Source of the DNA: Promethearchaeota archaeon
GTDB taxonomy: Archaea > Asgardarchaeota > Lokiarchaeia > Sigyniarchaeales > Promethearchaeaceae
DNA length: 43,292 nt
Assembly (NCBI GenBank): GCA_004524545.1
Contig: SDNX01000010.1
Location: 1 to 43,292 of the forward strand
Direction: 5' to 3'
Below the pieces are notes generated by a model. The model saw only the letters and a list, made by a program, of their open reading frames with translations. It did no database searches and was not told where the DNA came from. A program made the translations under genes and the position numbers. Of this stretch, positions 23,235 to 43,202 are shown piece by piece. Within the stretch, counting starts at the first letter, position 1; the number at the start of each line of letters is the position of its first letter.

Positions 23235-24446
23235 TTACTGATAGCTTTGGTATTTCTCTTCAAGTTTAGGATCGGTGATCGTGTCCATTATGTACTTGGC
23301 ATAGACGCTTCCTGTCACACCAGTGTCTCTGCCAGTTATCTTCACTTTGCGCTCATATTGTGCACAAATTTCCAACGCCATCTCAAGTTTCTTAGCTTTT
23401 TCAGAATATCCAATGTGATTCAATAGTAACGCAGCAGCTTTGATGATACTAGAAGGATCAGCATATTTTCCTCGACCTTCGGCTATCATCTTGTCTGCTG
23501 TACCATGAATGGCCTCAAACATGGCATAATTCTTCCCAATATTTGCACTACCAGCTGTTCCAACGCCACCCTGGATCTGTCCGGCTTGATCAGTCAAAAT
23601 ATCACCATATAAGTTCGGAGCAATGATGACCCGGAAGTGCTTTTGTCTTGCAGGATCAATGAGTTTCGCAGTCATAATGTCGACATACCAATCATCCCAT
23701 TCAATTTCAGGGTATTCATTTGCAATCCTTGCTGCAATGTTCAAAAACATACCATCGGTAGTTTTTATCACATTTGCTTTTGTAACTATAGAAACCCTGT
23801 TAATGTGATTCTTCTTAGCGTAATCAAAACCTGCTCGAATTATACGCTCTGAGCCTTGTTTAGTAACTGCTGTAAAATCTAGTGATAGATCTTCATTAAC
23901 GATTAAACCTTTACTACCTAAGACATATGCTCCTTCTGTATTCTCCCTAAAAAACATCCAATCAATCCCGAGATGAGGTACTCGCACAGGACGGACGTTT
24001 GCAAATAAATCTAGATACCTACGCATCGCGACATTTGCACTCTCGATATTTGGCCACGGATCTCCCTTACGGGGTGTCATTGTGGGACCTTTTAAAATCA
24101 CATGACACTTCTTAATTTCAGCAAGAACATCATCAGGAATTGCTTTCATCACCTTAACGCGATTCTCAATTGTTAAACCTTCGATATCTCGGAGTTCTAT
24201 TGCTCCAGATTTAATCTCATCTTTTAAAAGAAATTCTAATATAGATTTAGCATTTTTCGTGATTTCGGGACCAATTCCATCACCAGGAACAATTCCCACT
24301 ATGACTTTCTTTAGATTACTAAAATCCATGAAATTAGCTTCTTTTTTCATCAATTCAATCCGATCTAGCTGTTCCATAACTAATTTCGCGATATGTTCAC
24401 GAGCTTTTTGAATTGTCTGATAAATTTCGTATTTCGTATTTTCCAT
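23235..24446 (-). CDS. icd: Isocitrate dehydrogenase (beta-decarboxylating dehydrogenase family)
   Basis: Oxidises isocitrate to 2-oxoglutarate, or carboxylates in reverse. The 403-aa protein has GIVPGDGIGPEI, the substrate helix ESANVAMRRYLDLFANVRPV (serine, asparagine and arginines of the isocitrate site), the metal-site region APNLYGDILTDQAG and AMFEAIHGTADKM. The residues after HGTA (DKM) match neither the usual NADP pattern (PKY) nor the usual NAD pattern (PDI), so the cofactor is unclear. About 45 extra N-terminal residues form a charged helix; an ATG just before DFSNLKK would remove most of it. It follows aclA on the same strand after a 265-nt spacer which contains T-rich stretches and no gene that I can support. 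Confidence 0.88.
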   Translation of the reverse strand: MENTKYEIYQTIQKAREHIAKLVMEQLDRIELMKKEANFMDFSNLKKVIVGIVPGDGIGPEITKNAKSILEFLLKDEIKSGAIELRDIEGLTIENRVKVMKAIPDDVLAEIKKCHVILKGPTMTPRKGDPWPNIESANVAMRRYLDLFANVRPVRVPHLGIDWMFFRENTEGAYVLGSKGLIVNEDLSLDFTAVTKQGSERIIRAGFDYAKKNHINRVSIVTKANVIKTTDGMFLNIAARIANEYPEIEWDDWYVDIMTAKLIDPARQKHFRVIIAPNLYGDILTDQAGQIQGGVGTAGSANIGKNYAMFEAIHGTADKMIAEGRGKYADPSSIIKAAALLLNHIGYSEKAKKLEMALEICAQYERKVKITGRDTGVTGSVYAKYIMDTITDPKLEEKYQSYQ

Positions 24447-24711
24447 TTTAGATGTACCATTCCAAATTCATTTTGGGGGGTATGTGAGTAAATTTTTCAA
24501 CGGTTAAAAATCAAAACATTCTGGGAAATTTGTAGGTAGAGTGAAAAATGTGAATTAGAATAAGTGAAATATATGAAGTGCCATTTTTCCTACCAAAATG
24601 TAGCATATTATGAAGGAAAATATAGAAAATCTGGAAAAATCTGGCAATCAAAACATAATTCGAGAGTTTTTATAATGAAGATAATGAAAGAAAAATAAAA
24701 CAAAATTATTT

Positions 24712-26547
24712 TTAGTCTGAAAATAAAATTTCGTCCCAAGGTTGACGATAAAGGGAACTCCGCTGCCTTTTTTGGTCAAATATGTGACCCATCATACCGA
24801 TTGAACGACCTAAAACAAACAAACCATTTAAAGTTTCACTGAGAATTACATCTTCAATTTCTTCGGGTGTGAATTCTAAGTTTTCCAACATATCCAAGAA
24901 TGCAATGCCGATACATCCATCTACGTTTAATATAAGGTTATTTCTCTTTGAAGTGGTTAAAATTTCAACCTCTAAAGCGAAATCCAAATGAGGATGTTTC
25001 TCAAAATTTTTAATTACGAATTCTTTTAAGAGTGTAACTCGCACATCCGGGTTCTGAAGAGATTTAATCCTATGACCAATTCCAGGGATATTGATCTTCA
25101 CTTCATTTTTCATGTAAGTAATGAATTCTTTAGGCTGCATTTTTTTAAGAAGTGCTTCTCGGAAATATTTTGCGGCATCTGAGATGGCTCCTCCAAATCG
25201 AGGACCAATAGTGAGAATTCCACTTGCGAGAGAAGACATTAAATCCTTCCCTGCTCTGGAGGTTATTATGGAGTTATGAGCCCCAGAAACTGCTGGACCA
25301 TGGTCAGCGGTCAACTTCACAACCATCTCGATGAATTGCTGAGCAAATTCTGGCAATTCACGTTTAAACCAAAGTAACCCGATGACATAACCAATAGATT
25401 TGTTTTCCTCAATGATTTTATCCAAACCAATTTTGTGAAATCTCGGAACATCTCCACGATCATCCGAAATCGTTACAACCACATCAGTTGGGCGTCGGAT
25501 TAATCCTTGTTTTACTGCATCACTGTAATCTATCGGAATTTTAGGGGGTTCAAAGTCTTCCGCTGGTTTTAATGTACCTTTTTTCACTAAAGATTCATAT
25601 GTTTCTTTGATTTTTACATCAAAATCATCATATGATTCGGGAACAATTGCACCTGCTTCTTTGAGTGCAGTGTTTTTCGCTTCTGCAGTTTCTTTGGAAG
25701 ATCCTGCCATTGCTCCTGCATGACCGAATTGTAATCCTTTCGGAAGAATTCGTGCAGCAGTTCCAGTCACCCACATAACTAATGGTTTGGTAATTCTCTT
25801 GGATTTCAATGCATCGACAATGTTATATTCGTCAGTCCCTCCAATTTCCCCTAGACAAACTATCATTTTGATAGCAGGATTTTGTTCATATCTCATAACA
25901 TGATCCATTAATGAAGATCCAGGGTATCTATCTCCACCAATTGCAATCCCTTCGTAAATCCCATCAGTATTTTGAGAGACCATGAAATACATTTCATTAC
26001 TCATACCTCCAGACTTAGATACGAATCCCACCGAACCCGGACGATACAGTTTACTTAACTCGATATTTTCCAAAGTTCCAGCAGCATTTCCGATCTTGAA
26101 TGCTCCCGCTACTAAGCCACCGACGGTCGCAGGTCCAATTATAAATTTCTTATTTTTTTCTGCGGATTGGATTAATAGTCGTGCTTGTCTTTCTGGAACA
26201 CCTTCTGCAATAATCACAACAGTTCTGATGGTTTTAGATTCAAGAGCTTCCATACTTGTTTCGAATGCAGAACGGAAAGATGCGAAATTGATCAGCACAT
26301 CAGCAGTCGGATGTTTATAGGTAGCGTACTCAAGGGTTTTATAAATCGGAATAACTATTTCTGTAGCGCCATAAAATACTTTATGATATGCCACTGCTGA
26401 AGTTTGAGTTGGTTGAATAATTGCAGCAACACTTGGAGTATCTCGTTTTGAAATAAAATCAAAATCCAACATTCTTTGAACTGCAGCTGCCTGTAGTCCG
26501 TAAATTATTGCCTGAGTCTGTCTATCAAATAATTCGTAGTCTTTCAT
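24712..26547 (-). CDS. aclA: ATP-citrate lyase, large subunit (SCS-alpha-like plus citrate synthase-like)
   Basis: This 611-aa subunit cleaves citrate with CoA and ATP to acetyl-CoA and oxaloacetate, together with the ATP-grasp subunit. The N-terminal 330 residues are succinyl-CoA-synthetase-alpha-like, with SKSGGMSNEM and the phosphorylated histidine in QFGHAGAMAGSS (His276). The C-terminal part is the citrate-synthase-like citryl-CoA lyase module: DHGPAVSGAHNSIITSRAGK, SGILTIGPRFGGA, IPGIGHRIKSL, EILTTSKRNNLILNVDG and LFVLGRSIGMMGHIFDQKR. From memory these blocks are nearly the same in human ACLY. Its ATG overlaps the aclB stop by 4 nt with GAGGAGGGT upstream. Naming follows Chlorobium; in plant nomenclature this is ACLB. 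Confidence 0.96.
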   Translation of the reverse strand: MKDYELFDRQTQAIIYGLQAAAVQRMLDFDFISKRDTPSVAAIIQPTQTSAVAYHKVFYGATEIVIPIYKTLEYATYKHPTADVLINFASFRSAFETSMEALESKTIRTVVIIAEGVPERQARLLIQSAEKNKKFIIGPATVGGLVAGAFKIGNAAGTLENIELSKLYRPGSVGFVSKSGGMSNEMYFMVSQNTDGIYEGIAIGGDRYPGSSLMDHVMRYEQNPAIKMIVCLGEIGGTDEYNIVDALKSKRITKPLVMWVTGTAARILPKGLQFGHAGAMAGSSKETAEAKNTALKEAGAIVPESYDDFDVKIKETYESLVKKGTLKPAEDFEPPKIPIDYSDAVKQGLIRRPTDVVVTISDDRGDVPRFHKIGLDKIIEENKSIGYVIGLLWFKRELPEFAQQFIEMVVKLTADHGPAVSGAHNSIITSRAGKDLMSSLASGILTIGPRFGGAISDAAKYFREALLKKMQPKEFITYMKNEVKINIPGIGHRIKSLQNPDVRVTLLKEFVIKNFEKHPHLDFALEVEILTTSKRNNLILNVDGCIGIAFLDMLENLEFTPEEIEDVILSETLNGLFVLGRSIGMMGHIFDQKRQRSSLYRQPWDEILFSD

Positions 26548-27824
26548 TTTTTACCCTCCTCTTTTTGAATTAGGGAAACTATGTGAGTCATGTGTGAGTA
26601 CCTATCAAAGACTTTTATCGGGACGCCAGTTTTGATTCCAATTTCACGCATAAGATCAAGTCCCGCTTTTTCATTTGGACCACCTCGTCGCACATAAATT
26701 TTCACATTTGCTTTTTTAAGTTTTTCAGCCGACTTAGTGATTGCATTGGTTATTCCAATAAAAGTAGCTCTAACATCTGTGAAATTAGCGATACCTCCTC
26801 CAATAAGCAAATATTTGTACTTTCCTTTTTGGGCAGGATATTTACACATCAAATCGATCAATGTTTGAGCATAAATCTCTGTGTGTTCCATTGTTGGGTT
26901 ACCTGAATATTCACCATAATTGCCCAATTCAGCACCATAACCAAGGTCTGCAACGGTGTCGGTATATATCACAGATGCTCCACCACCAGCAACCATGGTC
27001 CAGATTCGCCCCTTTGGATTTAGTATGCGTAGTTTCAAAGAAGCACCTGTTTTCTCGTCTAATTTTTGGATCATTTCTTCTTCGTCAGTAAATTCTTGAC
27101 CGAATCCAGCTGGAAATTCGATTTCTTTGCCCCATGTATCAGCATGAAGGAAGGCTGCTGTGTCATCTAATCTGGCTTTCACATCTAAAGGAACGATTTG
27201 GTTATCTTCAGTTATCGCAAATGGATTTAATTCCAGAAAAGTGAAATCTTGTTCCACAAATACTTGATAGAGACCTTTAATAAATGGAACTATGATATCT
27301 CCAATTTTACCAAGTTTAGGAAGGTTTACTTTTAAATTAAAGGAGGCAATATCGGTTCCGAAAGGAATTTCTATGTGAGTTACTTTATCCCAATTCTCCT
27401 CAATGAAAATTCCCCCTTCTAAGGAGAAATGGATTGTGTCCCCATCTCGATCGGTAGTAAAAGAAACATAATATTCCTTTTCATGAGGAATAAAAGGTTC
27501 GACTAACATTCGTTCGAGTTTGCCCTTCAGGTTCCCGATTTCACAAAAATTATCGAGTTTCTCAATGCAAAACTCTTTCATTTCATCGCAACCTGCGTCG
27601 AGTAAAATAAGGTTTGCCTTACCACGTTTTCCAAATAGTTGATCTGGTTTAGCCACTACCTTTTCTTCTTTTACCCAGGAGTTCTCCTCAATGATTTTAT
27701 CAATATCAGTATCGCAATCTATAACGACTAACTTATTGTGATATTTCCATTCAGGGTAATATTTCGGAAGCTCTGAAGCAATTATTTTTTTCGCTGCAGC
27801 TTCATAAATCGATTTACTGGCCAT
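26544..27824 (-). CDS. aclB: ATP-citrate lyase, ATP-grasp subunit
   Basis: The 426-aa ATP-grasp/SCS-beta-like subunit, which binds ATP and citrate. Visible: KPDQLFGKRGKANL (nucleotide site), EPFIPHEKEYYVSF, FLELNPFAI, LDVKARLDDTA (metal-binding aspartate region), then the citrate-binding domain with NPKGRIWTMVAGGGASVIY, LGNYGEYSGNP, LLIGGGIANFTDV and YVRRGGPNEKAGL. Length and motifs agree with the plant small subunit (ACLA) and with the N-terminal half of animal ACLY. It precedes aclA with an ATGA overlap, the same order as in green sulfur bacteria. The leader AGAGTGTAAAAAATG closely matches that of the citrate synthase gene at 39253. Confidence 0.96.
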   Translation of the reverse strand: MASKSIYEAAAKKIIASELPKYYPEWKYHNKLVVIDCDTDIDKIIEENSWVKEEKVVAKPDQLFGKRGKANLILLDAGCDEMKEFCIEKLDNFCEIGNLKGKLERMLVEPFIPHEKEYYVSFTTDRDGDTIHFSLEGGIFIEENWDKVTHIEIPFGTDIASFNLKVNLPKLGKIGDIIVPFIKGLYQVFVEQDFTFLELNPFAITEDNQIVPLDVKARLDDTAAFLHADTWGKEIEFPAGFGQEFTDEEEMIQKLDEKTGASLKLRILNPKGRIWTMVAGGGASVIYTDTVADLGYGAELGNYGEYSGNPTMEHTEIYAQTLIDLMCKYPAQKGKYKYLLIGGGIANFTDVRATFIGITNAITKSAEKLKKANVKIYVRRGGPNEKAGLDLMREIGIKTGVPIKVFDRYSHMTHIVSLIQKEEGKK

Positions 27825-28016
27825 TTTTTACACTCTAAGCTCACTGGAGTAATGTGAAAATCAATGGATTATCTAACTTAAATCTATCTGCAGTGTCGTA
27901 TTGGGAACCTAATCCCACTTTTTTCTATGAACGAATCAAAAATAAGCCCAAAATTTGGAAAAAGCTGGCGGAAATGCCCGTAAAAGAGATTATTTCATAT
28001 AATATGTGAGATTTTT

Positions 28017-28489
28017 CTACTCAACTTCTAACTTATCTGGCATATTCAAATCTTGTTCCGCCATTCGAATTCCTTGAAGGATTTGCTCTTTTGCAAACAA
28101 TTCTTCGGTATAGCTCAGAAGAGTGTAAAAAAAAGCCAAAATATTAACTCCGACAATCCAGAATTTAACAATCCTCTTGTAAATTAGTTCAGTCTTTGCA
28201 GTTATGCGATATTCTAACGAATTTTGAGTTTTCCACAATTCTGAGCTACGTAATACTTCTCCTTGTAATAAAGGGCTTGTATAATCATCTTGTTCTAGTA
28301 ATGAAACAATTAAAAAAACCCGATCTCAGGTTTAAAGTCTTGAGTTTTCATGTACCCCATAAGCTTCCGTGTAAAAGTGACACATTCCTCACTCATGTCT
28401 TTTGCATTTTTATAATTGTAATATCCAAGAGACCTCATTTTAGAGGTTCCACAATCTAAGAAAATATATCGTAGAAGTGTTTTTAGCAT
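28017..28489 (-). pseudogene. Small membrane protein gene split by a one-base frameshift
   Basis: Two short frames join into one protein of about 157 aa if one T is added to the T7 run (plus-strand A7 at 28312-28318). The first 59 residues begin MLKTLLRYIFLDCGTSKM and end KTQDFKPEIGFF; the rest continues LIVSLLEQDDYTSPLLQ, then one membrane segment IVGVNILAFFYTLLSY and a charged end with QGIRMAEQDLNMPDKLEVE. The family is not recognised. The gene lies on the same strand between sucD and aclB and has the protein-like composition of a real gene on both sides of the break. Sequencing error and recent decay are both possible. Confidence 0.5.
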
Positions 28490-28531
28490 ATCAGACTCCG
28501 ACGAAAATGAATAAAAAACAAAATTAAGATA

Positions 28532-29401
28532 TTATTGATCTTGTTGAATTTTTTGAATTAACTTCGGAATATCCCATGGAGTATCACCGATGAGTGCCCC
28601 TGCTTCTCTCAACGCATTGATTTTCCCTATAGCAGTTCCAACATCACCCGATATGATTGCACCAGCATGACCCATCCTTTTTCCTTCAGGAGCGCTTTTT
28701 CCTGCGATATAAGCTACAACGGGTTTCTTCCCGTAAGCTTTCAAGAATGCAGCGGTTTCCTCCTCTTCAGATCCTCCGATTTCTCCAATTAAAACTATTA
28801 TTTTAGTTTGGGGGTCTTCGTTGTAATACTTTGCAGCATCTACCATAGTGGTTCCACGAATGGGATCTCCCCCGATTCCCACATAAGCTCGAACTCCGAT
28901 CCCTGCATTTCCTATAGCTTTTGTAATCTCATAAGACAAAGTTCCGGATTTTGCAATCACTGAAACCCCTCCATAGTGACACATATTACCCGGCATAATT
29001 CCCAGTTTGATCTTATCCGGTACCATCATTCCAGGACAATTTGGACCGACAAGGTGAACATCGTGTTCCTTTGCTAACTCTACAAGCCGAAGCATGTCAA
29101 AAACAGGTACATTTTCCGTTATGATACATGTCAAGTGAATATTTGCCTTAATAGATTCGCGAACGGCACCATACACGAACCGAGCAGGAACGAAAACAAT
29201 GCTCGTATCACAACTAGTTGCATCCTTAGCTTCTTGAACAGTGTTAAAGACGGAGATTCCATGTACTTCTTGTCCTCCTTTCTTAGGAGTGACACCCGCT
29301 ACAATGTTGGTCCCATATTCTTTCATTAATTTTGCATGGAAAGACCCTTGTCCACCTGTTATTCCCTGAACTACTACCTTGGATTTTTCACTGATATACA
29401 C
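28532..29401 (-). CDS. sucD: Succinyl-CoA synthetase alpha subunit
   Basis: The 289-aa CoA-binding subunit, which forms the phosphohistidine intermediate when interconverting succinyl-CoA and succinate with nucleotide phosphorylation. Motifs: VQGITGGQGSFHAKLM at the CoA-binding Rossmann domain, VGPNCPGMMVPD, VIAKSGTLSYEI, and the active histidine in GKRMGHAGAI. It starts with GTG at 29401, which shares one base with the sucC TAG (TAGTG), and GGAGG lies 10 nt before it within sucC. It is part of the minus arm of the TCA cluster. The nucleotide preference (ADP or GDP) cannot be read. Confidence 0.95.
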   Translation of the reverse strand: MYISEKSKVVVQGITGGQGSFHAKLMKEYGTNIVAGVTPKKGGQEVHGISVFNTVQEAKDATSCDTSIVFVPARFVYGAVRESIKANIHLTCIITENVPVFDMLRLVELAKEHDVHLVGPNCPGMMVPDKIKLGIMPGNMCHYGGVSVIAKSGTLSYEITKAIGNAGIGVRAYVGIGGDPIRGTTMVDAAKYYNEDPQTKIIVLIGEIGGSEEEETAAFLKAYGKKPVVAYIAGKSAPEGKRMGHAGAIISGDVGTAIGKINALREAGALIGDTPWDIPKLIQKIQQDQ

Positions 29402-30531
29402 TACTTTTTAACCTCCAAAATTTCTTTAAGTTTATTTACTGCTTCCAACACATCTGCATATGCATCCATTCCGGCGTTATGGAGTAGTTCGACACCTTCT
29501 TTTTCTTTCGTTCCGGTCAATCGAATCACCATAGGAGGATGTTCAGCAAAAATTTTTAACGCTTCAATAACAGCTTCTGCTACAACATCACATCGAGTAA
29601 TTCCGCCATAAATATTTATCAAAACGCCTTTTGGGTTCATTTTAAACAAAAGTTCTAAAGCTTTGAATACTCTTTCTTTGGACGCTCCTCCACCCACATC
29701 AAGGAAGTTTGCAGGTTTTAGATTTAGGTCAGTTAACACATCCAATAATGCAAGAGTTAATCCTGCACCGTTTGCTAGAATTCCAACTTCTCCATCCAAT
29801 TCTACAAAAGAAAATCCTGCTTCTTTAGCAATCTTTTCAAGTTCGGATAGTTTTTTCTGCTGCAATATTTTCGTATCAGGTTGGCGGAAATCGGCATCTT
29901 CATCCAAGATCATTTTCCCATCTACTGCGAATAAGCCTTCTTCAGCTAAAACAAGAGGATTTACTTCCACAAGCGTTGCTTCTGACATATGGGCAATATC
30001 CCATAAGGTGTGGAAAAACTTTTTTGCAGTTTCATACTCGCTTTCTGGTAAATTGAGAAATTTCACAACTTGGTCGACTTTATCATCAGTGAGTCCATGA
30101 TTAAGGTCAAAAGGAATCTTTAAGATTTTCTCAGGAGTGTTCTTTGCGACAGTTTCGATTTCCACACCACCTTCTGCACTTGCAATAACAAAAAACTGTC
30201 TGCTGGATGTATCCAAGGCAACGCTCACATAATATTCATGCTTGATATTTACTAAACTCTCAATTAAGATTGCTTTAACTCTGAAACCAGCAATTTCTCG
30301 TTGAAAGAACTCAGTGCAAAGAGATTTTGCTTCTTCGCGAGAATGTGCAATCTTTATCAATCCCGCTTTTCCTCTTCCTCCAATTGCAATTTGAGACTTC
30401 ACTATTGCCGGAAAAGAAAATTGTGCAAGCATTGTATCGATATTTTCAGGTTTTTCAATGAGAATACTGGCTACTAATGGGAGACCGTATTTTCGAAAAA
30501 CTTGCTTCGATTCATACTCTAACAATCGCAT
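29401..30531 (-). CDS. sucC: Succinyl-CoA synthetase beta subunit
   Basis: A 376-aa ATP-grasp subunit, the family's normal length. Visible: LLEYESKQVFRKYGLP at the start, KSQIAIGGRGKAGLIK, EVNPLVLAEEG and FAVDGKMILDEDA at the metal/nucleotide site, LANGAGLTLALLD, and in the C-terminal domain FLDVGGGASKERV and NIYGGITRCDVVA. The ATG at 30531 is chosen because the usual N-terminus MRLLEYESK begins there; six further codons exist upstream. It is the first gene of the minus arm, divergent from korA. It looks cytosolic. Confidence 0.95.
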   Translation of the reverse strand: MRLLEYESKQVFRKYGLPLVASILIEKPENIDTMLAQFSFPAIVKSQIAIGGRGKAGLIKIAHSREEAKSLCTEFFQREIAGFRVKAILIESLVNIKHEYYVSVALDTSSRQFFVIASAEGGVEIETVAKNTPEKILKIPFDLNHGLTDDKVDQVVKFLNLPESEYETAKKFFHTLWDIAHMSEATLVEVNPLVLAEEGLFAVDGKMILDEDADFRQPDTKILQQKKLSELEKIAKEAGFSFVELDGEVGILANGAGLTLALLDVLTDLNLKPANFLDVGGGASKERVFKALELLFKMNPKGVLINIYGGITRCDVVAEAVIEALKIFAEHPPMVIRLTGTKEKEGVELLHNAGMDAYADVLEAVNKLKEILEVKK

Positions 30532-30635
30532 AGTTTGAAGTCTTCGCAAAGGTTCTAAAAGTTTTTCCTAATCATCATTATCTCAATAAATTATAGGAAT
30601 ATGGTTTTATTAGTGGGAGAAACAACAATTGGTTA
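30532..30635. promoter_or_regulatory. Divergent promoter spacer of the TCA cluster
   Basis: A spacer of 104 nt separates sucC (minus) from korA (plus), so both arms of the cluster likely start here. An A+T-rich stretch AATAAATTATAGG at about 30584-30596 could give a TATA box for korA. There is no clear ribosome binding site before the korA ATG. I see no strong operator-like palindrome. Confidence 0.4.
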
Positions 30636-32357
30636 ATGACGAGATCTGTAAATTTGGCAATCAGTGGTCAAGCAGGTCAAGGTATAGCCACCGTTGAATC
30701 ACTATTAACAAAAGCACTTAAGAGATCTGGATTGAATGTGTTCGCATCACGCGAGTATATGAGTAGAGTCCGGGGAGGAATTAATTCTACAGCAATTAGA
30801 GTATCTTCTCAACCCGTGCATGCATTCGAAGATAGAATTGATATTCTTATTCCATTAAGTGATGAAGCAATTCCTCATCTACAGCATAGAATGACCAATA
30901 ACACCTTAGTAATTGGAGAAAAAGCTTTTCTAAGTATGGATTTATTGCTTTCATTCATTTCAATAGAAGTCCCGTTTACAGAACTTGCGAAGGAAATCGG
31001 GAGTATATTATATTCTAATATAATTGCACTTGGTGTAATTTCCTCCATATTCAAAGTTGAAAGACAAATTTTGCATGATCTTATAGAATTCACATTTCTT
31101 AAGAAAGGAGACAAAGTAATTCAACCTAATAAGAGTGCAATCAATAAGGGGTATGAAATCGGTGCAGAACTTGAGGACAAATATGAAATCCTCAAAAAAT
31201 TTTATATGAACAAGAATCCCGAGATAAAAAATGATTTAATCTTGGACGGTACAGAGTCGATAGCCTTAGGTGCAATTGCGGGTGGGGTTCAATATGAATG
31301 CTTCTATCCTATGGCGCCTTCAACTGGAATCGGAACTTTTCTAGCACAACAAGCATCAAAGTTTGGATTAATTGTAGACATGAGTGAGGATGAGATTAGT
31401 GTTATAAATAAAGCATTGGGAGCATCCTATGCAGGAGCTCGCTCACTCGTAACTACATCTGGTGGAGGGTTCTCCCTAATGACTGAAGCCATAAGTCTTG
31501 CAGGAATGCTAGAATTACCTATTGTCGTGGTTGTAGGGCAACGTCCTGGTCCTGCGACGGGGATGCCCACTAGAACAACTCAAGAAGATTTACGATTAGT
31601 GCTCCATGCAGGTGCAGGATTCTTCCCTAGAATCATATTTGCACCGGGATGTATTGAAGATTCGTTCTATCTCACTCAAAAAGCGTTTGATCTTGCCCAA
31701 AAGTATCAAGTTCCTGTTTTTATTTTGACCGATCAATACCTTGTGGATTCCTATTACAATTTACCCTTTCTAAATCTTGATTCCTTAAAGAATGAAAAAT
31801 TCATTGTAAAAACTGATAAGGATTATCAGCGATTTAAATTCACAAAATCTGGAATATCTCCAAGAGGAATACCTGGATACGGCGAAGGTTTGGTTGCGGC
31901 GGATTCCCACACTCATACAGAGGCGGGAATGATATCTGAAGACCCCGAAATTCGAGAAAAGTCTGTGGAAAAGCGATTGAAAAAGCTGAAACTAATAAAA
32001 GATGCTTCTATCCCACCAGAATTCATTGGAGATGCGAATAAAATAAAATATCAGATTGTTAGCTGGGGGAGTACATATTATATCATAAAGGAAGCATTAG
32101 ATAAAATAAACCGAAGTGATATTGGATTCCTTCATTTCAGTCAAGTATATCCAATCCATGAATCAACGAAGGATTACTTAAAAAAAGCGAAAATTAACAT
32201 AATGGTGGAACAAAATCCTACGGGTCAGTTTGCGAACCTCATTGAAAACGAGATCCATATACAGATTGATAAAAAAATTCTCAAATACAGTGGGTATACA
32301 CTATCTGTGGAGGATATAGTCGCTCAGATAACAGATGCAATTAATGGAGGGAATTAA
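30636..32357 (+). CDS. korA: 2-oxoacid:ferredoxin oxidoreductase, fused gamma-alpha subunit (2-oxoglutarate type)
   Basis: A 573-aa fusion. Residues 1-190 are the gamma domain (ISGQAGQGIATVESLLTKAL, then EYMSRVRGGINSTAIRVS); residues 205-573 are the alpha domain with the pyrimidine-domain motif YPMAPSTGIG (usual YPITPST), the TTSGGGFSLM loop and GPATGMPTRTTQEDL. This gamma-alpha fusion is the usual layout of two-subunit archaeal and Kor-type enzymes. The reaction is oxidative decarboxylation of 2-oxoglutarate to succinyl-CoA with ferredoxin, or the reverse. The specificity is inferred from the neighbours sucCD, sdhAB and icd; other 2-oxoacids cannot be excluded. No ferredoxin (delta) subunit gene is nearby. 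Confidence 0.9.
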   Translation: MTRSVNLAISGQAGQGIATVESLLTKALKRSGLNVFASREYMSRVRGGINSTAIRVSSQPVHAFEDRIDILIPLSDEAIPHLQHRMTNNTLVIGEKAFLSMDLLLSFISIEVPFTELAKEIGSILYSNIIALGVISSIFKVERQILHDLIEFTFLKKGDKVIQPNKSAINKGYEIGAELEDKYEILKKFYMNKNPEIKNDLILDGTESIALGAIAGGVQYECFYPMAPSTGIGTFLAQQASKFGLIVDMSEDEISVINKALGASYAGARSLVTTSGGGFSLMTEAISLAGMLELPIVVVVGQRPGPATGMPTRTTQEDLRLVLHAGAGFFPRIIFAPGCIEDSFYLTQKAFDLAQKYQVPVFILTDQYLVDSYYNLPFLNLDSLKNEKFIVKTDKDYQRFKFTKSGISPRGIPGYGEGLVAADSHTHTEAGMISEDPEIREKSVEKRLKKLKLIKDASIPPEFIGDANKIKYQIVSWGSTYYIIKEALDKINRSDIGFLHFSQVYPIHESTKDYLKKAKINIMVEQNPTGQFANLIENEIHIQIDKKILKYSGYTLSVEDIVAQITDAINGGN

Positions 32358-32358
32358 T

Positions 32359-33213: not shown

Positions 33214-33224
33214 AGGAAGCAAAA

Positions 33225-35724: not shown

Positions 35725-36510
35725 TTATGTGCGTCTTTTCATTAATTCAGGACTAACATATCCACTATACATGAAGAACGCAGCAATTGCTCCAAAAATC
35801 CATCCAAATGCTATGGATATTGCTTCATTTTTTAGAAGAGCAATTTCAGTCATTAAAAATACCTCATGGGTTATAAATGAAAGAACTGCTAGTAACATAA
35901 AAATCCCAGTCACACCCAGATCTCCAAGAGCTTTGTGTATAATTGGATCTTGGTCTGATGCTCTTCCCATAACCTTTCGAAGTTTAAATGCATTTACCGA
36001 GTATACTATGTAAATCACAATAGAGCATATAATATGTGCTACGAAGGGAATGAGCGACACATCTGCCAGGATTTCTGCAAAGAGAAATGGTCCTAAGAAA
36101 TACACAAAAAGTAAAATAGGGATTACAGCAAGTTGGATTATGGATAGAGTAATATAAAGTCCTTTTTTTATTTGTTCTCCATAAATTTCCTTCGCAAAAG
36201 CCAAAAGGAAGTAATTGCTTAAAGCATTTAGGGAAAAACTAAGATAGCTACCTAAATTCACAAATTCATAAGCTTCTATGATTACGTATTCAAATCCAAA
36301 TAATTCATTTGTAAACAAGAAACCCCCATCGATTAAGGCTGCAAAAGCTAAGCAGAATGCCACAATTTCCATATACAGTAAAGTTTTCGTATCCTCATTC
36401 TTTTTCAATCTCTTACGTTTAGCTAAGAAACCAAAAATGACAAACGCAAAAAAAGCAGACAGGAGTGAGCCAAAAAGTTGAATCCATTGAGTAGGACGTT
36501 CATCAAACAT
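35725..36510 (-). CDS. Seven-transmembrane protein, function unknown
   Basis: A 261-aa integral membrane protein with seven hydrophobic helices at roughly residues 10-30, 44-66, 84-106, 117-140, 146-172, 198-220 and 231-252. Short polar loops and a basic loop after helix 1 (LAKRKRLKKNED) suggest an N-out, C-in topology by the positive-inside rule. There is no kinase, lysine-retinal or heme-histidine pattern that I can name. The ATG has the near-perfect archaeal site GAGGTGAT 5 nt upstream, which supports expression. It interrupts the plus arm of the TCA cluster between sdhB and fumC on the opposite strand. It could resemble the sensor 7TM modules found before histidine kinases, but this is only shape. 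Confidence 0.65.
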   Translation of the reverse strand: MFDERPTQWIQLFGSLLSAFFAFVIFGFLAKRKRLKKNEDTKTLLYMEIVAFCLAFAALIDGGFLFTNELFGFEYVIIEAYEFVNLGSYLSFSLNALSNYFLLAFAKEIYGEQIKKGLYITLSIIQLAVIPILLFVYFLGPFLFAEILADVSLIPFVAHIICSIVIYIVYSVNAFKLRKVMGRASDQDPIIHKALGDLGVTGIFMLLAVLSFITHEVFLMTEIALLKNEAISIAFGWIFGAIAAFFMYSGYVSPELMKRRT

Positions 36511-36648: not shown

Positions 36649-36670
36649 TTCCACTGGATAGTGATTCATA

Positions 36671-38059
36671 ATGGAATTTCGTACCGAAAAAGATGTATTA
36701 GGAGAAGTAAAAGTACCCGTGGATGCTTATTGGGGGGCCAATACGCAACGTGCAATCGAAAACTTCAATATCAGCGGCAAGCGATTTCCTACTGTTTTTA
36801 TTCTTTCCTTGGCGGAATTAAAAAAAGCATGCGTACAGGCAAATCGAGAACTAAAACTCATTAAAGAGGGAGATTATGAAGCAATTCTGGCAGCAATAGA
36901 TGAGATTATACTCGAAAAAAAACTTCTTGATCAATTTCCTGTTGATGTTTTCCAATCAGGGAGTGGAACCCAAACAAATATGAATATGAATGAAGTTTTA
37001 GCTAATCGTGCAAATGAAATTTTGGGTCATCTCTTAGGAAAAAAGTACCCAGTTCATCCTAATGACCATATAAATATGGGTCAATCTTCAAACGACGTAA
37101 TTCCAAGCGCTATGCATATTTCTACGATACATTTACTGAAAGAGAAACTCATTCCTGCTTTAGATACAATTACAAGTTTTCTTGGAAAAAAAATACGCGA
37201 ATTTGAAGGTATTATTAAAGTTGGACGCACTCATCTTCAAGATGCAGTTCCTATTCCCTTAGTAATGGAATTTGATGTATATAGGACTCAACTTCAAAGA
37301 GCTAAAGCAGAGATTAAGCGTGTTTTGAATGATTTATCATATATTCCAATCGGTGGTACTGCTGTGGGAACAGGTCTAAATACTCACGGCGAATTTGCGA
37401 GTCTCGTTGTAGCGAATTTAACTAAAATCACGGAAGTTGCTTTTAAAATAAAATCCACAAAAGCTGAGGATATTGCTTCCCATAATACCTTGGTGCAAGT
37501 AAGTTCTCGATTACGTTCTATTGCTCTATCCGCCTTCAAAATGGCAAATGATATACGATGGATGGGTAGTGGTCCACGAGCAGGATTATCAGAACTAATA
37601 CTCCCTCAAAATGAGCCTGGTTCATCAATCATGCCAGGAAAAATCAACCCTACACAATCTGAAATGCTAATTCAAGTCGCAATTCAAGTAATTGGAAATG
37701 ATGCAACAATAACTCAAGCAGAAGCTCATGGGAGTATATTAGATTTGAACGTTTGTAAACCCTTAATGATTTACAATCTTTTGGAGTCAATTGAACTCTT
37801 ATCAAATGGGATCACATCTTTTGCAGAAAATTGCTTGAGTGACCTAAAAGTCAATGAAAAACACATCAATTCACAATTAGACTCACTATTGATGACAATC
37901 ACAAGATTAACACCCATTATTGGATATGACAAATGTGCCCAAATTGCACAAAAAGCGTATCGTGAAGGAAAAACAATTAAAGAAGTTATTTTAGAGGAAA
38001 AAATCAAAATAAAAGGAAATTTAGATGAATTATTGGATCCGAAAAATATGGTAGGATGA
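36671..38059 (+). CDS. fumC: Fumarate hydratase, class II
   Basis: A 462-aa oxygen-stable class II fumarase interconverting fumarate and malate. The N-terminus FRTEKDVLGEVKVPVDAYWG, the block SGSGTQTNMNMNEVLANRA, HPNDHINMGQSSNDVIPSA, KVGRTHLQDAVPIP, and the fumarase/aspartase signature GSSIMPGKINPTQ are all present. The C-terminal domain has the usual YDKCAQIAQKAY and EGKTIKEV. It is followed 6 nt later by the FMN enzyme, so both are probably on one message. Confidence 0.95.
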   Translation: MEFRTEKDVLGEVKVPVDAYWGANTQRAIENFNISGKRFPTVFILSLAELKKACVQANRELKLIKEGDYEAILAAIDEIILEKKLLDQFPVDVFQSGSGTQTNMNMNEVLANRANEILGHLLGKKYPVHPNDHINMGQSSNDVIPSAMHISTIHLLKEKLIPALDTITSFLGKKIREFEGIIKVGRTHLQDAVPIPLVMEFDVYRTQLQRAKAEIKRVLNDLSYIPIGGTAVGTGLNTHGEFASLVVANLTKITEVAFKIKSTKAEDIASHNTLVQVSSRLRSIALSAFKMANDIRWMGSGPRAGLSELILPQNEPGSSIMPGKINPTQSEMLIQVAIQVIGNDATITQAEAHGSILDLNVCKPLMIYNLLESIELLSNGITSFAENCLSDLKVNEKHINSQLDSLLMTITRLTPIIGYDKCAQIAQKAYREGKTIKEVILEEKIKIKGNLDELLDPKNMVG

Positions 38060-38065
38060 AAACAA

Positions 38066-39124
38066 ATGTCAAATGAAAAGCTCACTTTAGAAGATGTTCG
38101 TGATCAAGCGAAGGTAAAATTGAAAGGAATTTGTGGAGTGTACAAGATCTGTGATGGAGATCCAAGCCGTCTTTGTCAAAGACATTCATATGGAGGACCT
38201 CTTGGAATCGGAGGTATAGGAAGCGGAGCCTCCTTTACTAACAATGTTCTTGCATTGAAAAAAATCAAGTTGAAAATGCGCTTGGTAGGAGAAACATTCG
38301 AACCCGATACATCTTATTCATTTTTTGGGAATGAACTTTCAATGCCTATTATGGCAGCAAGTACTGCAGGAGTCACTAGTTTCGGTGGAGATGGGGTGAT
38401 AACTGAAGAAGAGTTTTGTAAAGCGGTTGTTCTTGGTTGCAAGGATGCTGGTACAATCGGGTGGCGAGGCCATAGTTGGAACTACTCGTTAGAAACACCT
38501 CATGGTCTTAACGCAATAAATGATGCAAATGGATTTGGGGTCAAAATTTGCAAACCGATAGAACAAGAAAAAATTATTCAATACTACAAAAAAGCAGAGG
38601 AAATTGGTGCAATCGCAGTTGGAGTGGATATAGATGGTGCCGGATCGGTCGCAATGCCTAAGAATGGTAAACCTGTGTATCGTAAAAGTCCTGAAGATAT
38701 ACGAGATTTAGTCAAAGCAACGTCTCTCCCAGTTATCATCAAAGGAGTAATGACAGTTGAAGACGCCCAAATTGCGATGAATGCTGGTGCTGCAGCAATT
38801 GTTGTCTCTAATCATGGGGGGAGAGTGCTTGATTTTACTCCGGGAACTGCAGATGTCTTACCTAAAATTGCTGATGCAGTTAAAGGAAAAATCAAAATTA
38901 TTGTGGACGGAGGAGTGAGAACGGGCTATGATGTCCTTAAAATGCTTGCGTTAGGGGCAGAAAGCGTCCTTATCGGACGGGATATAATCCGAGCTGCAGT
39001 TGGTGCAGGAAAATTGGGTGTAAAGCTTCAGATGGAACATTTAATGATTACTCTGAAAAAAGCAATGTTAATGACCAATTGCAAAAATCTGAAAGAAATT
39101 ACTTCCGAAGTAATGGAAACGTAA
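38066..39124 (+). CDS. FMN-dependent alpha-hydroxyacid dehydrogenase family protein
   Basis: A 352-aa TIM-barrel flavoenzyme of the glycolate oxidase/lactate dehydrogenase family. The FMN lysine lies in VIIKGVMTVEDA; the catalytic histidine and substrate arginine in VVSNHGGRVLDF; the FMN-phosphate loop in VDGGVRTGYDVLKMLALGA and LIGRD. The N-terminus has cysteines at about 23, 29 and 37 and GIGGIGSGASFTNN, a pattern I associate with the poorly characterised anaerobe (clostridial) branch. The substrate is unknown. It is 6 nt after fumC and before citrate synthase, where malate dehydrogenase would be expected, so malate is a candidate substrate by position only. Confidence 0.82.
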   Translation: MSNEKLTLEDVRDQAKVKLKGICGVYKICDGDPSRLCQRHSYGGPLGIGGIGSGASFTNNVLALKKIKLKMRLVGETFEPDTSYSFFGNELSMPIMAASTAGVTSFGGDGVITEEEFCKAVVLGCKDAGTIGWRGHSWNYSLETPHGLNAINDANGFGVKICKPIEQEKIIQYYKKAEEIGAIAVGVDIDGAGSVAMPKNGKPVYRKSPEDIRDLVKATSLPVIIKGVMTVEDAQIAMNAGAAAIVVSNHGGRVLDFTPGTADVLPKIADAVKGKIKIIVDGGVRTGYDVLKMLALGAESVLIGRDIIRAAVGAGKLGVKLQMEHLMITLKKAMLMTNCKNLKEITSEVMET

Positions 39125-39145
39125 TTTTCATACGCAATATATTCA

Positions 39146-39160
39146 TTTTTTTGCCTTTTT
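39146..39160 (+). terminator. Oligo-T termination region after the fumC unit
   Basis: A T7 run and then a T5 run follow the FMN gene stop within 40 nt, with no strong hairpin. Archaeal RNA polymerase stops at such tracts. A TATA-like box follows, which supports a break between the two transcription units. Confidence 0.45.
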
Positions 39161-39188
39161 CTACCAATTCTCGTTGAAATGATAATGA

Positions 39189-39198
39189 TTTATAAAAA
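39189..39198 (+). promoter_or_regulatory. TATA box for citrate synthase-aconitase
   Basis: TTTATAAAAA is the best match to an archaeal TATA box in the window. A start near 39220 would give a leader of about 30 nt ending in AGAGTGTAAGAAATG. Confidence 0.55.
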
Positions 39199-39252
39199 AT
39201 AGGATTAAATTTCTTCACGTTTTTTCTAATCTACGAATAGAGAGTGTAAGAA

Positions 39253-40530
39253 ATGTCAAAATTACCAAAAGATACGCAATATTCCAATGTAGTTTTAGAA
39301 GATTATGAAGAACCATCAGCAGAGCTCTGCTTGCGATGTATGAATAGGACGTTCAAAGGGCTTGTGGGAGTCTATGTTGATGAAAGCAAAATTACAAAAA
39401 TCGATGGAGAGAATGGAAAATTATTCTATCGGGGATATTCATTAGAGGAGTTGGTGGAGAATTCAACCTTTGAAGAAGTAGCTTATCTTCTTATTCATGG
39501 GCTCTTACCTACAAAAACTGAATATGAGGAATTTTGTAAAATACTCGTCAGTGAACGAGATATCCCAGATCCTATATTAACCATCTTAAAAAGTTATCCT
39601 AGGAATACTACTCGCATTGAATTATTAAGAACATCTGTCTCTGCACTAGCATTATATGATCCAGATGATTACGATTACTCCGAAGAAGCAAATATTAGAA
39701 AAGGATTACGAATTATCGCTAAAATTCCAACGATTTTAGCGTTCTCTCATAGAATCCAAGAGAATTTACCTATAGTTGAACCAGATCTCACTGGAGAATT
39801 AAGCCATGCTGGTAATTATTACTATATGATGACGGGTAACAAACCCACGAAAGAATTCGCGGATGTATTTGATAAAATTCTTATTTGTCATGCAGATCAT
39901 TCAATCAATTCATCGACTTTCTCTTGTAGAGTTACTGTATCTACATTATCAGATATTTATTCAGGAGTAACCAGCGCAATTGGAACATTACGAGGTCCAT
40001 TACATGGAGGAGCTAATGAACGTGTGGTAAAAATGCTTCTCGAAGAAATAAAAACAAAAGATAATGTAATACCTTACATTAAGAAGAAACTCGAAAACAA
40101 CGAAAAAATAATGGGAATGGGTCATAGAGTTTATAAAACTTGGGATCCAAGAGCAAAAATCCTCAGAAAATTTTCGAAAGATCTTTGGGAGAAGGAAGAA
40201 GCAGGAGTACTTGATAAAATCCCTGATCGAGAACACGAGGAACATAAAGACAAGATTGACAATTTATTCGAAATGACGGATATGATAGCAAATTATATCA
40301 TTAAAGAGAAAAAAGGAAAAATCTATCCTAATGTAGATTTATACTCTGCAGGGTTATTGCATGTCATGGGGAGTCCCACTCCGCTATTTACACCTCTCTT
40401 TGCAGCAGCTCGTTCAGTCGGGTGGGTCGCACAAGCTATAGAACAATTAGCTGATAATAAGCTCAGTCGACCTCGATTACGGTATGTTGGTGAGTTGAAG
40501 AAGAAGTACTTAAAAATAGGGGGACGCTAG
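39253..40530 (+). CDS. gltA: Citrate synthase
   Basis: Condenses oxaloacetate and acetyl-CoA. The 425-aa protein shows LRGPLHGGANE (histidine), GMGHRVYKTWDPRA (histidine) and YPNVDLYSAG (catalytic aspartate). It is about 40-50 aa longer than typical archaeal enzymes: the N-terminal 30 residues are extra (with CLRCMNRTF) and a charged stretch near KIPDREHEEHKDK enlarges the helical region before the aspartate motif. The start ATG has no strong ribosome binding site. It is followed by aconitase after 5 nt. It coexists with ATP-citrate lyase, which does the reverse. Confidence 0.94.
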   Translation: MSKLPKDTQYSNVVLEDYEEPSAELCLRCMNRTFKGLVGVYVDESKITKIDGENGKLFYRGYSLEELVENSTFEEVAYLLIHGLLPTKTEYEEFCKILVSERDIPDPILTILKSYPRNTTRIELLRTSVSALALYDPDDYDYSEEANIRKGLRIIAKIPTILAFSHRIQENLPIVEPDLTGELSHAGNYYYMMTGNKPTKEFADVFDKILICHADHSINSSTFSCRVTVSTLSDIYSGVTSAIGTLRGPLHGGANERVVKMLLEEIKTKDNVIPYIKKKLENNEKIMGMGHRVYKTWDPRAKILRKFSKDLWEKEEAGVLDKIPDREHEEHKDKIDNLFEMTDMIANYIIKEKKGKIYPNVDLYSAGLLHVMGSPTPLFTPLFAAARSVGWVAQAIEQLADNKLSRPRLRYVGELKKKYLKIGGR

Positions 40531-40535
40531 AAAAA

Positions 40536-43202
40536 ATGAACACAATGGATACAATCCACTCAAAAACCATAGAGAAATTGCCCACAAGCATGGGCAATGT
40601 TAAAATTTTCAACATTAAGAAACTTGAGGAGCAAGGTTTAGGAAAAATAAGTAAGCTCCCCTATTCTCATCGAGTGTTACTAGAAAACATCCTTCGGAAT
40701 CTGGATGGAAAATTAGTCACTAAAGAACATTTGATGGCTATGTGTGAATGGGACTGTAAAAGCGATACTCCTTCCGAAATTGCATATATACCGTCTCGAG
40801 TTTTACTTCAAGATTTTACCGGAGTCCCAGCTGTAGTAGATTTAGCAGCTTTGCGTTCTGCTATGAAACGCGCGGGAAAAAACCCAGCGGATATTAATCC
40901 TTTGAACCCAGTCGATCTAATTATCGATCACTCGATTCAAGTGGATTTCGCGGACTCCAAAGATGCCCTAGAGAAAAATGAAGCTAAGGAAATGGAGCGA
41001 AATCGAGAACGCTATGTGCTCTTGAAATGGGCTCAAGAGCAATTAGAAAACTTTCGAGCCATCCCGCCCAGCCAAGGAATTTGCCATCAAGTGAATTTGG
41101 AATATTTGGGAAAAGTGGTTCACAAACGAGTGGTTAATGGTGAGGAATTAGCGTTCCCAGATACGTTAGTCGGGACGGATTCACACACCACAATGATTGA
41201 TTGTTTAGGTATCGCGGGTTGGGGTGTAGGTGGAATCGAAGCGGAAGCAGTTATGCTCGGACAACCCTATTATATGAATATTCCCAAAGTTATCGGTGTG
41301 AAAATGGTTGGAAAACCGAAAGAAGGAATAACTGCAACAGATATTGTTCTAGTTATTACCCAAAAACTCCGTGAACAAGGTGTGGTTGATAAATTCGTAG
41401 AATTCTACGGACCTGGCTTGAAAGAGCTATCCCTCCCTGATCGAGCTACTATTGCCAATATGGCGCCAGAATGCGGTTCGACGATGAATTTTTTCCCTGT
41501 GACCGAAGAGACACTTAGATATCTTATATCTAGCGGTCGAGATGCAAAATATGTAGAATTCATTGAGACTTACTTAAAGCATGTTGGTCTGTTTTACACG
41601 GACGAAGCTCCCACTCCCGACTACAGTGAGATTTTGGAATTTGATCTTTCTGAAGTTGAACCTAGTTTATCAGGTCCAAAACGACCACAAGACCGAATTA
41701 AACTGAAAGACATGAAAATAGCTTTTCATGAAACCATGAAAACTTATCTGAAAAAAGCGGATGAGTTGGATAAAATTTCGGATGGAACCACATTAGATAA
41801 TGGGTCAATTGTAATTGGAGCAATTACATCTTGCACAAACACCTCAAATCCCTCTGTGATGATAGGTGCGGGATTATTAGCACGGAACGCCATCCAGAAA
41901 GGCTTGAAAGTACAACCCTTTGTAAAAACATCTTTCGCTCCGGGTTCCCGAGTAGTTGCAGATTATATGAAAGATTCCGGATTAATGAATTATTTAGAGC
42001 AATTAGGCTTTTACTTAGTTGGATTCGGATGCACATCTTGTATTGGAAACAGCGGTCCATTAGATCCAAAAATAGTGAGGGAAATTCGTGAGAGAAACCT
42101 GGCAACTGCTTCAGTCTGTAGTGGTAATCGGAATTTTGAGGGGAGAATTAGTCCTTATGCTCGAACAAACTATTTGGCATCCCCTCCTTTGGTGGTTGCA
42201 TTCTCTATTGCGGGTACTGTGGCTATTGATTTAGAAAATGAACCCTTAGGAACATCTTTGGATGGAAGTCCCGTATTTTTAAAAGATATTTGGCCGGATA
42301 CCAAAGAAATTGAGGAAATACAAACTAAGTATGTTACACCCGAATTATACAAAAAAGAATACGGAAGCATCACCGGAAATGATCTCTGGAATAATCTGCA
42401 AGTACCAACTGATAAAGTATTTCAATGGGAAGAAGATTCCACGTATATCCGAGAACCCCCATTCTTTGTAGATTTTCCCACAGAGACCCCTCCATTGCAA
42501 AATATAAATAATGCTCGAGTTTTAGCACTAGTTGGAGATAGCGTAACGACAGACCATATTTCTCCTGCAGGTGCAATTCCGAAAGATATGCCAGCAGCGG
42601 ATTACTTAATCTCACATGGTGTAAAACCCGAAGATTTCAATTCCTTTGGTTCAAGAAGAGGAAATCATGAAGTTATGATGCGTGGAACATTTGGAAATAT
42701 TCGGATACGTAATTTACTGGTGAATAAAGAAGGAGGATGGACGGTATATCATCCAACTGGTGAGGAAATGCCAATCTACACTGCAGCAATGAAATATATT
42801 GAAAATGCGACCCCATTAGTTGTATTAGCAGGAAATGACTACGGAATGGGTTCATCTCGTGATTGGGCTGCAAAAGGTACTTGGTTACTGGGAGTTAAAG
42901 CTGTAATTGCAACATCATATGAACGAATTCATCGAAGTAACTTAGTTGGTATGGGTGTCCTTCCTTTAGAATTCAGAAAAGGAGAAAGTGCACAATCCCT
43001 AGGGTTGGATGGAACAGAAACTATCTCAATTTCCGGAATCGATACTGTGAAACCCTTGTCTGAAATTGATGTTAAGGCAAAAAAAGGGGATAAGATCATC
43101 AATTTCAAAGTTTTGGTTCGATTGGACAGCCTTGTAGATGTCGAGTACTATCAGAATGGCGGAATCTTACATACTGTTCTTAGAAATATATTAAAAAAAT
43201 AG
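40536..43202 (+). CDS. acnA: Aconitate hydratase (AcnA/IRP type)
   Basis: An 888-aa [4Fe-4S] enzyme interconverting citrate and isocitrate, normal length for AcnA/IRP1. LLENILRNLDG, RVLLQDFTGVPAVVDLAA, LVGTDSHTTMIDCLG and GWGVGGIEAEAVMLGQP open the protein. Cluster cysteines are in ITSCTNTSNP and in FGCTSCIGNSGPLD. The C-terminal swivel domain has DSVTTDHISPAGAI, FGSRRGNHEVMMRGTFGNIR, YGMGSSRDWAAKG and SYERIHRSNLVGMGVLPLEF. It is read with citrate synthase, whose stop lies 5 nt upstream, and ends the plus arm of the cluster. Confidence 0.96.
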   Translation: MNTMDTIHSKTIEKLPTSMGNVKIFNIKKLEEQGLGKISKLPYSHRVLLENILRNLDGKLVTKEHLMAMCEWDCKSDTPSEIAYIPSRVLLQDFTGVPAVVDLAALRSAMKRAGKNPADINPLNPVDLIIDHSIQVDFADSKDALEKNEAKEMERNRERYVLLKWAQEQLENFRAIPPSQGICHQVNLEYLGKVVHKRVVNGEELAFPDTLVGTDSHTTMIDCLGIAGWGVGGIEAEAVMLGQPYYMNIPKVIGVKMVGKPKEGITATDIVLVITQKLREQGVVDKFVEFYGPGLKELSLPDRATIANMAPECGSTMNFFPVTEETLRYLISSGRDAKYVEFIETYLKHVGLFYTDEAPTPDYSEILEFDLSEVEPSLSGPKRPQDRIKLKDMKIAFHETMKTYLKKADELDKISDGTTLDNGSIVIGAITSCTNTSNPSVMIGAGLLARNAIQKGLKVQPFVKTSFAPGSRVVADYMKDSGLMNYLEQLGFYLVGFGCTSCIGNSGPLDPKIVREIRERNLATASVCSGNRNFEGRISPYARTNYLASPPLVVAFSIAGTVAIDLENEPLGTSLDGSPVFLKDIWPDTKEIEEIQTKYVTPELYKKEYGSITGNDLWNNLQVPTDKVFQWEEDSTYIREPPFFVDFPTETPPLQNINNARVLALVGDSVTTDHISPAGAIPKDMPAADYLISHGVKPEDFNSFGSRRGNHEVMMRGTFGNIRIRNLLVNKEGGWTVYHPTGEEMPIYTAAMKYIENATPLVVLAGNDYGMGSSRDWAAKGTWLLGVKAVIATSYERIHRSNLVGMGVLPLEFRKGESAQSLGLDGTETISISGIDTVKPLSEIDVKAKKGDKIINFKVLVRLDSLVDVEYYQNGGILHTVLRNILKK

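Follow-up and report, generated by a model that had tools for sequence, protein, structure and literature searches.

The present study analyzes a cluster of tricarboxylic acid (TCA) cycle genes at positions 23235–43202 of a Lokiarchaeal window, which is the entire contig C22 (43,292 bp) of the host genome, G000 (2.55 Mb, 76% complete). In our reading this cluster serves anaerobic metabolism as a hub, two-way or branched, for carbon derived from amino acids, as opposed to a respiratory cycle, a route of CO2 fixation or a means of exporting acetyl-CoA, and we put the probability of this reading at roughly 0.6. The cluster is genuine and conserved; it goes beyond the usual degree of completeness and represents a variant of TCA arrangements already known. 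The relatives of the host are Lokiarchaeota, and an origin among the Heimdallarchaea was rejected on that ground. The most interesting point of the cluster is a dehydrogenase dependent on flavin mononucleotide (FMN) that is encoded within it. Comparisons were made with other Asgard genomes, designated G with a number; G086 belongs to the same genus as the host, f1 is the host family, and f3 and f12 are other families.

All named genes are full-length open reading frames (ORFs) according to ORF calls and profile searches, and they form two divergent arms, as the original prediction stated for icd, aclA, aclB, sucD, sucC, korA, korB, sdhA, sdhB, fumC, gltA, and acnA. From the centre outward the minus-strand arm carries sucC, sucD, the citrate-binding subunit of ATP-citrate lyase (ACL), its citrate-synthase-like subunit, and icd, while the plus-strand arm carries korA, korB, sdhA, sdhB, fumC, the FMN 2-hydroxyacid dehydrogenase gene, gltA, and acnA. 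The arms meet at 30549/30636, with 86 bp separating the start codons of sucC and korA. The earlier list named its genes rightly but omitted the FMN dehydrogenase and a membrane protein, and both ACL subunits are present as it said, with the correction that the 611-residue product is the CoA-ligase and citrate-synthase-like subunit and the 426-residue product the ATP-grasp and citrate-binding one. The features are as follows.

23235–24446, minus strand: icd, isocitrate dehydrogenase (IDH; NAD-type IDH/homoisocitrate dehydrogenase family); Pfam Iso_dh, 1.2e-63
24712–26547, minus strand: ACL, CoA-ligase and citrate-synthase-like subunit, 611 aa; Ligase_CoA and Citrate_synt domains
26544–27824, minus strand: ACL, ATP-grasp and citrate-binding subunit, 426 aa; Citrate_bind 3.2e-75, Citrate_synth_N 2.5e-63
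27825–28531: gap between sucD and aclA, 707 bp, short ORFs only; about 150 bp in G086
28532–29401, minus strand: sucD, succinate-CoA ligase alpha; NF004230, 375 bits (cut-off 336)
29401–30549, minus strand: sucC, succinate-CoA ligase beta; NF001913, 385 bits (cut-off 370)
30550–30635: divergent intergenic region between the arms, read from the sequence
30636–32357, plus strand: korA, 2-oxoacid:ferredoxin oxidoreductase alpha (gamma-alpha fusion); TIGR03710, 591 bits, above cut-off
32335–33213, plus strand: korB, 2-oxoacid:ferredoxin oxidoreductase beta; TIGR02177, 333 bits, above cut-off
33225–34937, plus strand: sdhA/frdA flavoprotein; TIGR01812, 748 bits, above cut-off
34937–35701, plus strand: sdhB/frdB iron-sulfur subunit, without a membrane segment; TIGR00384, 203 bits, above cut-off
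35725–36510, minus strand: membrane protein of 261 aa with six hydrophobic segments, family not assigned; convergent with sdhB
36671–38059, plus strand: fumC, class II fumarase; TIGR00979 the best family at 570 bits, below its cut-off of 665
38066–39124, plus strand: FMN-dependent L-2-hydroxyacid dehydrogenase, candidate malate-oxidising enzyme; FMN_dh, 1.1e-60
39253–40530, plus strand: gltA, citrate synthase (type II); TIGR01800, 420 bits (cut-off 421)
40536–43202, plus strand: acnA, aconitase; TIGR01341, 1302 bits, above cut-off

The gap that separates sucD from aclA contains two short ORFs on the minus strand (about 28017–28489), possibly remnants of a decayed gene, and a simple pattern search found no TATA-like octamer in 30550–30635. 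The claim that the whole cycle lies together is right as to an unusually complete grouping: citrate synthase, aconitase, IDH, 2-oxoglutarate oxidation, succinate-CoA ligase, and fumarase of the oxidative gene set are all in the cluster. It falls one step short, however, in that no malate dehydrogenase of the lactate/malate dehydrogenase (LDH/MDH) family (PF02866) was found in the window or in the 76% complete G000 genome.

The finding that citrate synthase and ACL occur together, with the catalytic motifs of both intact, agrees with what had been predicted. Against structures in the PDB the large ACL subunit scored highest with Methanosaeta concilii (6hxi_B, 794 bits), ahead of human ACLY (723) and Chlorobium (417), and the ATP-grasp and citrate-binding subunit scored 411 bits with 6hxi_A. 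Phosphohistidine and lyase motifs (QFGHAG, SGAHN, GIGHRIKS, LNVDGCIG) are conserved; with both subunit classes present and the catalytic His and Asp kept, the enzyme is by its sequence of the archaeal/eukaryotic type. Citrate synthase likewise conserves all its catalytic motifs (ADHSINSST, PLHGGAN, GHRVYKTWDPRAK, NVDLYSAG), so that both citrate enzymes look functional. The top PDB matches of IDH are isocitrate dehydrogenases, and its substrate motif SANVAMRR has the isocitrate-binding pattern.

The comparison of gene order in other Asgard genomes that had been proposed showed the layout to be kept in G086, G111, G127, G135, and G146, independent assemblies from two Lokiarchaeal families. On a 303-kb contig of G086 the cluster stands in the same order at 66–83% identity, lacking gltA and the membrane protein gene, and synteny between G000 and G086 spans the cluster and continues past icd. 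Within family f3, G111 and G146 have both divergent arms, each over two contigs, although the G146 stretches that were read did not show sdhAB, while G127 and G135 have both arms on one contig with korB a fragment of 80–84 residues. The same order in G086 and, spread over no more than two contigs, in the four f3 genomes argues that the cluster is not a product of chance. Chimeric assembly, which had been named as a condition that would undo the prediction, is ruled out by the even GC content across the window (32–41%) and by synteny with the independent G086 contig. The arm from korA to acnA also occurs without ACL in G108, together with adjacent sucC-sucD, and on a short contig of G109. The korB fragments of G135 (L218:7728-7967) and G127 (L221:12615-12866) adjoin an intact sdhAB, with further ORFs inserted, and the oxidoreductase step of the cluster seems, from these sequences, to be decaying in both genomes. 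Further variation was seen as a thiamine-pyrophosphate enzyme bearing a fused rubredoxin domain at its N-terminus, encoded between sdhB and fumC in G135 (L153:16028-17815), and as tandem citrate synthase pairs in G135 (L153:9603-12235) and G146 (L154:5992-8664) with about 67% and 74% identity to gltA of the window. Among 228 Asgard genomes ACL is found in 59, citrate synthase in 53, and both in 15; the association is not significant, and avoidance of one enzyme by the other is thus not supported. Many Asgard genomes without citrate synthase have ACL in an acn-aclA-aclB-icd operon, with an aconitase differing from that of the cluster, and this operon points to a role of ACL in the branch between citrate and 2-oxoglutarate.

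The companion genes that had been suggested as a check were found in part. A PorA/PorB-like pair, predicted to be a pyruvate:ferredoxin oxidoreductase (POR), lies on contig C48, the same contig that carries acetyl-CoA synthase (CdhC), and with korAB in the cluster the genome thus appears to encode ferredoxin-linked oxidoreductases of both kinds. However, COX1 was not found in any of the 12 genomes tested, the 49-kDa subunit of complex I was not found in G000 or its cluster-bearing Lokiarchaeal relatives, and the SdhC/D anchor (Sdh_cyt) was not found in G000 or its more complete Lokiarchaeal relatives, so that the membrane-anchored succinate dehydrogenase (SDH) and respiratory chain of an oxidative cycle were not detected in G000. 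The more complete relatives show the same absences, except for one PF00346 match in G087. The membrane protein encoded between sdhB and fumC had no match in a Pfam search; it is unlikely to be the SDH anchor, as its gene is convergent with sdhB and absent from the corresponding place in G086, where the spacing between sdhB and fumC is 24 bp. Because no oxidase, 49-kDa subunit or SdhC/D was detected and genes of amino-acid catabolism lie nearby, the cycle most likely handles amino-acid carbon without oxygen.

In the proposed hub, amino-acid-derived 2-oxoglutarate and C4 acids would be the substrates. The korAB-encoded 2-oxoglutarate:ferredoxin oxidoreductase (KOR) and succinate-CoA ligase would take 2-oxoglutarate to succinate, yielding reduced ferredoxin and ATP, fumarase would hand malate to the FMN dehydrogenase, which would supply oxaloacetate, and citrate synthase would draw oxaloacetate and acetyl-CoA irreversibly into citrate, while near-equilibrium ACL with IDH could shift carbon between citrate and 2-oxoglutarate in either direction. 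The earlier suggestion of a reversible cycle is reasonable in that KOR and ACL make reversibility possible. The genes gltA and aclAB belong to different transcription units read from opposite strands, and because of this ACL and citrate synthase could be controlled separately, with expression of the units deciding which citrate enzyme acts. Such control might, but need not, prevent the ATP-wasting cycle against which the original prediction warned. Citrate cleavage by ACL is near neutral (5.6 kJ/mol) whereas cleavage via citrate synthase is strongly endergonic (37.4 kJ/mol), and the ACL of Desulfobacter postgatei operates in the citrate-forming direction (PMC12743299). It follows from the near-neutral reaction and the D. 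postgatei example that the direction of the cycle in the host cannot be read from genes alone.

Several points weigh against the hub as proposed. Citrate synthase is dispensable, as G086 retains all else without gltA; gltA and acnA may have a promoter of their own, a TATA-like match being the sole pointer to it; and at 76% completeness the absences are weak for G000 taken alone. In addition, the family models for SdhA and SdhB (TIGR01812, TIGR00384) do not split succinate dehydrogenase from fumarate reductase, and an unanchored SdhAB could act as fumarate reductase, in which case the oxidative cycle would fall into two branches.

This last possibility enters into two of the alternatives. In a reductive (Arnon-Buchanan) TCA cycle for autotrophy, ACL would cleave citrate, KOR and IDH would fix CO2, SdhAB would act as fumarate reductase, and citrate synthase would be accessory. 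The presence of ACL, KOR, IDH, fumarase, succinate-CoA ligase, and POR, the lack of a detected SdhAB anchor, and the acn-aclAB-icd genes of so many Asgard genomes without citrate synthase are all consistent with such a cycle. Its marks, ACL and KOR, are indeed there as originally pointed out, but three things weaken the autotrophic reading: acetyl-CoA synthase already offers a CO2-fixing route, an irreversible citrate synthase is retained within the cluster, and other window genes serve amino-acid breakdown. We consider this reading unlikely. We would give a similarly low probability to a branched, incomplete pathway in which 2-oxoglutarate is oxidised to succinate while aspartate or oxaloacetate is reduced via malate and fumarate by a soluble fumarate reductase, the genes being co-located for regulation and the carbon never cycling. 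The failure to find an SDH quinone anchor, an oxidase or the 49-kDa subunit would fit this pathway, as would the anaerobic amino-acid gene setting; yet the genes of the branch have retained both aconitase and citrate synthase as neighbours, and oxidation of malate is suggested by the FMN dehydrogenase adjoining fumC. A eukaryote-like role, with ACL supplying citrate-derived acetyl-CoA for isoprenoid synthesis, had also been put forward, and ACL is close in sequence to its human and Methanosaeta counterparts. Export of this kind finds no compartment to cross, however, with POR and acetyl-CoA synthase encoded for the same cytoplasm and ACL genes linked to icd and aconitase genes, and it is very improbable.

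The hub reading depends for its malate step on the FMN enzyme, which may convert malate to oxaloacetate, as its gene context suggests. That the malate dehydrogenase belongs to the LDH/MDH family is not supported, as no match was found in G000 and those matches in Lokiarchaeal relatives with a readable specificity motif carry the LDH-type glutamine. The FMN gene follows fumC in nearly all Lokiarchaeal contigs examined. In 11 of the 11 genomes of the Lokiarchaeal order that have both the FMN gene and gltA, it lies upstream of gltA in the same orientation, at a distance of up to about 3 kb; four genomes from three further Asgard families share the arrangement with gltA. Alignment of homologues shows invariant catalytic residues (Lys226, His250, Arg253, Asp188) and four invariant cysteines (Cys23/29/37/118), the latter being the reason to consider an iron-sulfur content possible. 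The AlphaFold2 (AF2) model (pLDDT 84, pTM 0.87; residues 25–53 poorly modelled) has the TIM-barrel fold of glycolate oxidase, with alpha-hydroxyacid oxidases as top PDB matches (TM about 0.75), so that fold and catalytic Lys, His, Arg, and Asp are those of PF01070; the N-terminal half is too divergent for reliable alignment with Tyr24 and Tyr129 of glycolate oxidase. We propose, tentatively and at clearly less than even odds, that this is an unrecognised L-malate dehydrogenase with flavin and possibly also iron-sulfur content, which would pass electrons to an acceptor other than NAD and complete the TCA cycle of the many Asgard archaea that lack the classical enzyme.

The FMN enzyme cannot be regarded as the sole malate-oxidising candidate, because Ldh_2-family genes (PF02615) are widespread, being present in 130 of the 228 Asgard genomes, including G000 (C146:239-1267). 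It is a serious possibility, only a little short of an even chance, that malate is oxidised by this Ldh_2 enzyme on its other contig and that the FMN enzyme acts on lactate or another 2-hydroxyacid; this bears on the malate step only, and its probability is not exclusive of those of the other alternatives. Across genomes of the Asgard phylum the FMN enzyme showed no anticorrelation with either LDH/MDH or Ldh_2 genes, and its association with Ldh_2 is positive, not negative, which favours Ldh_2, as does the FMN enzyme's occurrence in unrelated surroundings in family f12. Conversely, the FMN enzyme and citrate synthase are encoded in G108 (92% complete) and in G123, in neither of which an Ldh_2 or LDH/MDH-family gene was found, nor a malic enzyme in G108; the best NCBIfam match of the G000 Ldh_2 protein is L-sulfolactate dehydrogenase, far under its cut-off; and the position of the FMN gene between fumC and gltA is kept. 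In family f12 (L172, L183, L184) the FMN dehydrogenase has no TCA neighbours and the genomes have neither citrate synthase nor ACL, and the role of the enzyme there may differ.

Phylogenetic analysis of both ACL subunits placed the window and G086 with family f3 and not with G087 and G091 of their own family, and a constraint keeping the host family together was rejected (p-AU 0.0027). Citrate synthase of the window likewise nests within f3 sequences, with the family mate G092 outside, and the genes beside icd (orf18072 and those for aldehyde ferredoxin oxidoreductase, the Fe-S oxidoreductase, and the amino-acid oxidase) are common to f3 genomes. The simplest reading that the trees suggest is passage of the cluster as a block between Lokiarchaeal families; an alternative is that ACL was replaced in the rest of family f1.

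Elsewhere in the window, 5631–11077 groups ornithine transaminase, carbamate kinase, a kynurenine-formamidase-like cyclase (PF04199), a GPH-type transporter, and ornithine carbamoyltransferase, and is a neighbourhood for breakdown of arginine and ornithine, perhaps also of tryptophan; a kynureninase gene (21918–23210) adjoins icd. Positions 11745–17214 encode aldehyde ferredoxin oxidoreductase, then an Fe-S/FAD oxidoreductase of the sarcosine-oxidase-alpha kind, then a DAO-type amino-acid oxidase, an order kept beside icd in other Lokiarchaea. A small Ras-family GTPase-like ORF (17648–18064) matches only the C-terminal portion of the Ras model. It is followed by orf18072 (18072–19439, 455 aa), which has a P-loop-like GCGKS motif and no Pfam or NCBIfam match, and which adjoins icd and the aldehyde ferredoxin oxidoreductase gene in several Lokiarchaea; it may be a cyclic 2,3-diphosphoglycerate synthetase.

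Asgard archaea are the nearest known relatives of eukaryotes, and Lokiarchaeal central carbon metabolism has been argued mainly from scattered genes. A conserved, near-complete TCA block with both citrate enzymes offers a concrete model for the direction of the cycle, the control of that direction, and malate oxidation. If the FMN enzyme is indeed a malate dehydrogenase, an apparently missing step in many Asgard genomes would be filled, and block transfer between Lokiarchaeal families, as it appears, would mean that an entire pathway can be acquired in a single event. A search of the open-access literature found no published full TCA cluster in Lokiarchaea and no FMN malate dehydrogenase, which does not prove their absence.

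Among known systems, Chlorobaculum tepidum and other green sulfur bacteria resemble the host in having ACL with ferredoxin-linked KOR. Green sulfur bacteria also carry citrate synthase alongside ACL. They are phototrophs, whereas the host is a non-phototrophic Lokiarchaeon with acetyl-CoA synthase, an archaeal-type ACL, and clustered genes, and in them citrate cleavage persists with acetate present (PMC12743299). The oxidative TCA cycle of D. postgatei likewise pairs ACL with KOR in an anaerobe and is a precedent for ACL forming citrate and ATP (PMC12743299, PMC9768450), but that organism respires sulfate, while the search for a respiratory chain in the host was negative and its ACL is accompanied by citrate synthase. 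Desulfobacterium N47 combines a reversible TCA cycle using KOR with the Wood-Ljungdahl pathway (PMC12137691); it has citrate synthase only and no ACL, where the host has both. Methanothrix (Methanosaeta) concilii has the same two-subunit archaeal ACL, the nearest solved structure, but is a methanogen, and the host ACL sits inside a full TCA cluster. Finally, the FMN enzyme shares the fold and the catalytic Lys, His, and Arg of the glycolate oxidase/L-lactate dehydrogenase family (PF01070), from which it is set apart by a divergent N-terminal half with three invariant cysteines and by its TCA-gene neighbours.

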